Shown piece by piece: positions 1 through 1,011 of a DNA stretch of 36,220 bases (position 1 is the first letter of the stretch; every line of letters starts with the position of its first letter). Origin of the DNA: Candidatus Kuenenia stuttgartensis. Its GTDB lineage: Bacteria > Planctomycetota > Planctomycetia > Planctomycetales > Planctomycetaceae. The stretch lies in NCBI GenBank assembly GCA_945861975.1, contig CAMAXD010000015.1, forward strand, positions 1-36,220. Reading direction: 5' to 3'. A program made the translations under genes and the position numbers. The notes under the pieces were generated by a model. That model saw only the letters and a program-made list of their open reading frames with translations, made no database searches and was not told the origin of the DNA.

Positions 1-911
1 CGAGCCCGTGATGCATCGCGGCGAAATGTATTTTCGGCCACTGCATCAGTCGTCAGCTGCACCTCGGAGTTGTCAGCTGTTGTCCTCAGCCCGAGATTAT
101 TTGACCGAGTGAACACGATCGACGCACCATCCGGCGACGTTGAAGCCGCAACCTCAGGAGCCTGGCGGTTACGACGAGGCGGCTCGTCAACGTTGACGTT
201 CTTGATCACGCTGTCATCAATGACCACATTTAAGCCACCGGACTCCGCGCGGACGCAACCCAGCTCTTTCCCGTCGGCATCACTGAAGAGCCAAACATGC
301 CCGACAAATGTGTGCTGGCTTCGAGATTCACCGGGCTTCACTGTTCCGTATTCTCTCCGCCCGCCCGACGAATCAATCCAGCTCAGAGTTAATACCCGAT
401 CCAGACGATTCTCGACCACAATCTCTGTGTCCTCTCGTCCGTCAGCGGATGGCCTAACTGGCAGAAACAACGAGGTAACATTATTTGCAGGTCCGGTGTT
501 TTCGGCGGTTACTTTTCCCGAATCACGTTGCAGACGAAATCGCCCCTCGGGTCCTATCAGCAGGATCTGAGTCCCGTCTTCACTGAATTCGATCTCGTTC
601 ACAGGAAGCTGTTCGCCCGAGACGTCTCGCTTCAGCAATTCTGCCAGCTCTGCGGCAACAGCCGCATGGTCAAATGCCGGGACTCGAGCACCCTTATTGG
701 CATCGACCAGAATGAATTCGCGTTTGGCATCCGGAAGATCATTGCGATACCAGAACTGCGATTGATCACCAAACCACTTCGGCTGGACTCGATCACGATA
801 AACCCGCTGCGCCTCGGCTGTTTGTTCGAACGAACAACTCGCCAGCAACAACACAACTCCGTGAATCAGTGTCTGACAGGATCGTGGATGTAAGCAGAAA
901 CAAGCGGACAT
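1..911 (-). CDS. S9-family prolyl oligopeptidase / DPP-IV-like peptidase, N-terminal part only (runs off the left edge), with a VHL-beta-like insert
   Basis: Manual minus-strand translation from ATG at 911: MSACFCLHPRSCQTLIHGVVLLLASCSFEQTAEAQRVYRDRVQPKWFGDQSQFWYRNDLPDAKREFILVDANKGARVPAFDH..., open to base 1. Signal peptide/lipobox-like start and 'W..D...FWYRND...FILVDA' typical of DPP-IV N-terminal regions. Missing from the ORF track because it has no stop in the window. Confidence 0.8.
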   Translation of the reverse strand, partial: MSACFCLHPRSCQTLIHGVVLLLASCSFEQTAEAQRVYRDRVQPKWFGDQSQFWYRNDLPDAKREFILVDANKGARVPAFDHAAVAAELAELLKRDVSGEQLPVNEIEFSEDGTQILLIGPEGRFRLQRDSGKVTAENTGPANNVTSLFLPVRPSADGREDTEIVVENRLDRVLTLSWIDSSGGRREYGTVKPGESRSQHTFVGHVWLFSDADGKELGCVRAESGGLNVVIDDSVIKNVNVDEPPRRNRQAPEVAASTSPDGASIVFTRSNNLGLRTTADNSEVQLTTDAVAENTFRRDASRA

Positions 912-1011
912 CACATGCTCCGAATCAGAAGCCTGAACACGAGAAGAACGTCATATCCAGGAGTCGAATGACACAAGAGGGCTTTTGTTCTGGTCGCGAA
1001 TTAAGCATTTT

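Follow-up and report, generated by a model that had tools for sequence, protein, structure and literature searches.

VHL has been described as a reader of hydroxylated HIF that belongs to animals, and pVHL has been reported missing from choanoflagellates and other protists (PMC9618697). The Hyp site of pVHL consists of W88, Y98, H110, S111, H115 and W117; S111 and H115 form bonds with the Hyp hydroxyl, and Y98 with the Hyp carbonyl (PMC9528729). Drosophila VHL carries Thr at position 111 (PMC4195687). Human Y98H pVHL, changed at a residue that contacts Hyp directly, folds normally, and W117 is part of a structural aromatic cluster (PMC3688787). From bacteria, a VHL beta domain was reported earlier in a secreted hypothetical protein of Litorilituus sediminis, for which tumor-suppressor use was proposed; the available text of that report has no peptidase fusion, family-wide pocket analysis or link to Hyp catabolism (PMC9002001). 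The collagen-utilization cluster of Colwellia BB5, a gammaproteobacterium, resembles the loci described below in placing secreted protease genes beside Hyp catabolism with a 4-Hyp epimerase, but the available text on it mentions no VHL domain (PMC7883544). In literature readable without subscription, we found nothing linking bacterial VHL to peptidases or Hyp catabolism. The fold and its pocket are known from animals and bacterial VHL has been noted once before; the linkage to Hyp operons is new.

We analyzed 36,220 nucleotides of Candidatus Kuenenia stuttgartensis (the window), which form one whole contig (G000:C15) of a 6.26 Mb, 612-contig genome. At its start lie the following features.

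3..914, minus strand: 5' part of a VHL-S9 peptidase gene (ORF list; full-length paralogue L009)
264..449, minus strand: VHL beta domain, aa 156-217 (Pfam PF01847; PDB pVHL match; AlphaFold/Foldseek)
291..380, minus strand: Hyp-pocket residues W179 (W88), Y189 (Y98), H201 (H110), T202 (S111), H206 (H115) and W208 (W117) (ungapped alignment; family conservation; PMC9528729)
36..173, minus strand: start of the DPP-IV N-terminal beta-propeller, aa 248-293 (PF00930, 22.5 bits against a cut-off of 22)

The minus-strand ORF 3-914, in which we found the peptide quoted in the earlier note at its given place, encodes 304 aa and is open at the contig start. Its product is probably exported, judging from a hydrophobic, export-signal-like N-terminal stretch whose last residues are TAEAQ. 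Since the gene leaves the contig end, the S9/DPP-IV label within the window comes from aa 248-293 only. We found two further copies in the same genome, one as an 880 aa ORF (C452) and one cut at its 5' end (C517), and the same gene is present in relatives known from GTDB MAGs (L006-L008). The C452 protein (L009) matches VHL at 40.7 bits, DPPIV_N at 151.4 bits and Peptidase_S9 at 146.2 bits in Pfam, and its nearest solved structures are bacterial DPP-IV/DAP IV (5yp1, E 1.8e-50). Hence, the S9 catalytic domain predicted earlier is present in both same-genome paralogues, and the catalytic part of the window copy itself lies beyond the contig. A gene for an ATP:guanido phosphotransferase (1145-2233; McsB-like protein arginine kinase) precedes the VHL-S9 gene and shares its strand; a scan of the ten other ORFs of the window gave no recognizable Hyp-related gene. 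With a probability of about 0.7, the window gene would encode an exported S9/DPP-IV-like serine peptidase with a VHL insert that most likely binds 4-Hyp and docks the enzyme on Hyp-containing proteins.

The window protein matches PF01847 well over the cut-off (47.9 bits against 21, E 1.4e-12), and its best 24 matches among all PDB chains searched with phmmer are all pVHL (E 8e-9 to 7e-8). By BLASTP, 24 of 62 residues are identical to human pVHL (39%) without a gap; hence the gap-free alignment from Y98 to W117 claimed earlier is right and in fact longer, as are the equivalences given for Y98 (Y189), H110 (H201), S111 (T202), H115 (H206) and W117 (W208). W88 is matched as well (aa 179). An AlphaFold model of the window domain, built with three relatives, has a pLDDT of 74.7 overall and 81-90 in the core; the 50 PDB matches that Foldseek listed for it are all pVHL, with an E of 1.8e-7 and, for 1vcb, 1.3 A over 89 columns. 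The profile search thus bears out the VHL-family assignment of the earlier note, and the predicted fold is that of pVHL among the PDB matches listed.

The likeness to human and Drosophila pVHL therefore covers the gap-free match, the predicted fold and the W/Y/S-T/H/W pocket, and the Thr at 111 is shared with the Drosophila protein. Unlike pVHL, the bacterial protein has no match to the Elongin C-binding VHL alpha domain, with E limits of 10 for the window protein and 0.01 for the paralogue; the part after VHL is of S9 type. Hence, the bacterial protein is not a ubiquitin-ligase receptor. It also differs in that the VHL domain lacks the HIF-flanking contacts and sits inside a peptidase that is probably exported. 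A full-length AlphaFold model of the L007 homologue, made from four sequences, reached a pLDDT of 50.6 and was unusable for placing VHL relative to the active site.

VHL occurs in 62 of 394 Planctomycetota genomes, in 77 of 171 genomes of the window organism's own family and in 84 of 120 genomes of family f5; none of 14 control genomes has a match over the cut-off. In other phyla, the matches found are on plasmids, those of Jannaschia, Calothrix and Nostoc. They include small VHL hypothetical proteins of Jannaschia W003 and Calothrix NIES-4101 (L144, L145), the Jannaschia gene coming after a VWD-domain gene. The set we analyzed comprises 90 VHL domains in 89 ORFs, with 65 in VHL-S9 proteins, where VHL precedes the DPPIV-type propeller, and 25 elsewhere. 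These other carriers are HExxH metallopeptidases, sulfatases, SASA esterases, a GH127 enzyme, LRR proteins and a protein kinase; VHL is C-terminal on the metallopeptidases, sulfatases and esterases, and internal in S9 proteins. The pairing of VHL with S9 is therefore not unique, as VHL is also found on metallopeptidases, sulfatases and carbohydrate-active enzymes.

Some carriers stand out. One 981 aa ORF (L116, G030) holds tandem VHL domains in a single secreted protein, the second without H115, and the kinase (L115, G142) combines MORN repeats with a C-terminal VHL that retains the pocket His. Adjacent GH127, LRR and SASA-esterase genes in G300:C243 (L088) bear their own VHL each, as do adjacent LRR and SASA genes in G166:C58 (L096, L146); such neighboring VHL genes look like a common address tag over a degradation locus. 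GH127 is a family associated with Hyp-linked arabinose. We gave the GH127 fusion no weight as a hint of Hyp, its VHL copy being without H115 and its closest NCBIfam family being aceric acid hydrolase, below the cut-off.

All 65 VHL-S9 domains have Y98 and W117, W88 and H115 are kept in 64 each, and position 111 is always Ser (6) or Thr (59). Among 60 positions ranked for conservation by entropy, W88, Y98, S/T111, H115 and W117 take places 1, 2, 4, 5 and 6 (permutation p<1e-5). The ranks are 13 and 29 for F76 and F119, which are structural in pVHL, and between 9 and 55 for the HIF-flanking contacts; HIF-peptide contacts outside the Hyp pocket (N67, R69, P99, I109) are not kept. Since Y98H pVHL still folds, the constancy of Y98 points to binding rather than folding. 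In the 25 non-S9 copies, W88, S/T111 and W117 are invariant, Y98 is present in 24 and H115 in 15. H115 is kept in all 11 metallopeptidases and is absent from sulfatases, esterases, GH127 and LRR proteins, where Ala or Asn replaces it (L065-L116); this loss might leave room for glycosylated Hyp.

In the S9 part, all 58 full VHL-S9 proteins retain the Ser/Asp/His triad and Tyr547; these residues and the propeller with alpha/beta hydrolase build are shared with bacterial DPP-IV/DAP IV (5yp1, 2ecf). They differ from those enzymes in the VHL insert and in the substrate pocket. At the S1 positions of DPP4, W659/Y662/Y666 (defined, as is the Glu205/Glu206 dyad, in PMC3440348), all 58 proteins have N/D/W, and they lack the dyad. 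Hence, the earlier label of a proline-directed peptidase is unsupported, and DPP4-type Xaa-Pro specificity is not supported by the residues predicted to line the pocket. With these changes, S1 might accept a polar or a basic residue at P1. We found S9 orthologues without VHL in three genomes (L183, L185 and L188 in G254, G021 and G234), with a catalytic part 60-62% identical; in these, the first propeller segment runs straight into an Arg-rich linker. Since close orthologues do without it, VHL is a removable insert that is dispensable for the enzyme. The motif DNRMDKxWWNE is common to both groups, and together with the N/D/W pocket it marks the 58 VHL-S9 proteins and the three orthologues as a separate S9 subfamily. 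The idea that the S1 change co-evolved with VHL was dropped, the pocket being identical in the VHL-less orthologues.

While testing the co-occurrence of VHL with Pro_racemase (PF05544), we found a gene order in G018 that prompted a survey of linkage. There, a VHL-metallopeptidase gene follows genes for a DapA-family protein, a 4-Hyp epimerase and an FAD D-amino-acid dehydrogenase, with only an IS110 element between (an IS110-family transposase gene, L138:8146-9330). The same order on the same strand, DapA-type gene, epimerase, dehydrogenase and VHL enzyme, recurs in G485, where the fourth gene encodes a VHL-S9 peptidase, and in G538, where it encodes a VHL-sulfatase with Ala at H115 (both from the own-family survey). 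As replication in a second family, G648 has a sulfatase-like VHL gene of 588 aa whose ORF start adjoins the end of the dehydrogenase ORF. Hence, a VHL enzyme lies directly downstream of Hyp genes, each time on their strand, in four genera of two families. The gene set is that of the established epimerase route, which is also set out in PMC7883544. The best NCBIfam family of the epimerases is 4-hydroxyproline epimerase, at 451 bits in G485 (cut-off 450) and, slightly below cut-offs, at 445 in G538 and 421 in G018, with proline racemase scores of about 200.

Linked pairs number 4 of 198 VHL/epimerase pairs. Chance would give 0.23 within 4 kb (P 1e-4) and 0.057 same-strand downstream (P 4e-7), by Poisson P values that carry no phylogenetic correction. 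Since G018 prompted the survey, three is the fair count, and without G018 the P values are ~2e-3 (4 kb) and ~3e-5 (same-strand downstream). The presence-absence association of VHL and PF05544 is strong in the two families (62/77 vs 44/94 and 72/84 vs 17/36), confounded by phylogeny and secondary support only. The window's genome has 4-Hyp epimerase fragments at contig ends, one of them beside a D-amino-acid dehydrogenase (L142, L143). We saw no VHL gene beside these fragments, and no Hyp genes beside the window gene or its two paralogues, on contigs that are short and, for the window, in a neighborhood cut by the contig end. At eight Hyp loci without VHL (L172-L179), a small sample, this S9 family is not found. 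The linked VHL enzymes belong to three unrelated classes (S9 peptidase, metallopeptidase and, twice, sulfatase), with only VHL detected in common. Three secreted enzyme types thus take one slot of a Hyp operon and share VHL alone, whose invariant residues are the ones that hold Hyp in pVHL. This is most simply explained if VHL binds Hyp in extracellular protein and brings the enzyme there. The functional Hyp link that the earlier note had guessed at thus gains independent support from the gene neighborhoods of relatives.

We infer the following mechanism for the window protein. The VHL beta domain, whose insertion point lies ahead of most of the beta-propeller, would bind 4-hydroxyproline through its pocket in extracellular Hyp-containing proteins or peptides, candidate ligands being algal or plant hydroxyproline-rich glycoproteins and collagen-like proteins. 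Docking by VHL would bring the peptidase to these substrates, and the freed Hyp could then be imported and burned via epimerase, D-Hyp dehydrogenase and deaminase.

Three other readings were weighed against this one. VHL could be a generic accessory beta-sandwich that binds protein or glycan, its pocket being retained because it helps folding or takes a ligand other than Hyp, such as proline, a glycan or a C-terminus. The place of W117 in the aromatic cluster of pVHL fits such a module, as do the VHL copies on a protein kinase, LRR proteins and proteins of unassigned function, and so does the missing H115 in 10 of the 25 non-S9 copies. However, the structural F76 and F119 are less conserved than the pocket, no S9 copy has lost Y98 even though pVHL with Y98H is not unfolded, and three unrelated VHL enzyme types adjoin Hyp catabolism; we consider the generic module unlikely. 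It is about as improbable that the S9 enzyme itself cuts Hyp-Xaa or Xaa-Hyp through its N/D/W S1 pocket, with VHL as a minor exosite. The polar groups of that pocket, constant in all 58 proteins, could hold the hydroxyl, and equally a basic residue, but the VHL-less orthologues share the DNRMDKxWWNE motif, which means that the S1 change goes with the enzyme whether VHL is there or not.

More improbable still is that VHL serves as a sorting or anchoring tag of secreted planctomycete enzymes, whatever their substrate. Its C-terminal place on metallopeptidases, sulfatases and esterases would suit a tag, and so would the adjacent genes of G300:C243 (GH127, LRR, SASA) that all bear it. Yet VHL is internal in S9 proteins, the Hyp-pocket residues are conserved, and a tag would leave the linkage to Hyp catabolism unexplained. 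Several observations count against Hyp docking itself: sulfatases make up half of the four linked enzymes, the one in G538 with Ala at H115; linked pairs are few (4 of 198); close S9 orthologues do without VHL; HIF-peptide contacts outside the Hyp pocket are not kept; and on their short contigs the window gene and its paralogues do not adjoin Hyp genes. Taken beyond the window gene, Hyp docking leads to a wider reading that is possible but doubtful: a bacterial Hyp-reader module, independent of ubiquitin and HIF, may steer secreted enzymes (peptidases, sulfatases and glycosidases) toward hydroxyproline-rich glycoproteins, the H115 copies on peptidases reading bare Hyp and the Ala/Asn copies on sulfatases and carbohydrate-active enzymes reading O-glycosylated Hyp, with animal pVHL as an offshoot of this more ancient module.

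A large bacterial family with the pVHL pocket on secreted degradative enzymes, and with genomic links to Hyp catabolism, gives a concrete hypothesis for this fold outside oxygen sensing. The bacterial VHL copies are candidate Hyp-binding modules, and bacterial VHL may point, in a testable way, to enzymes acting on the hydroxyproline-rich glycoproteins of algae and plants.
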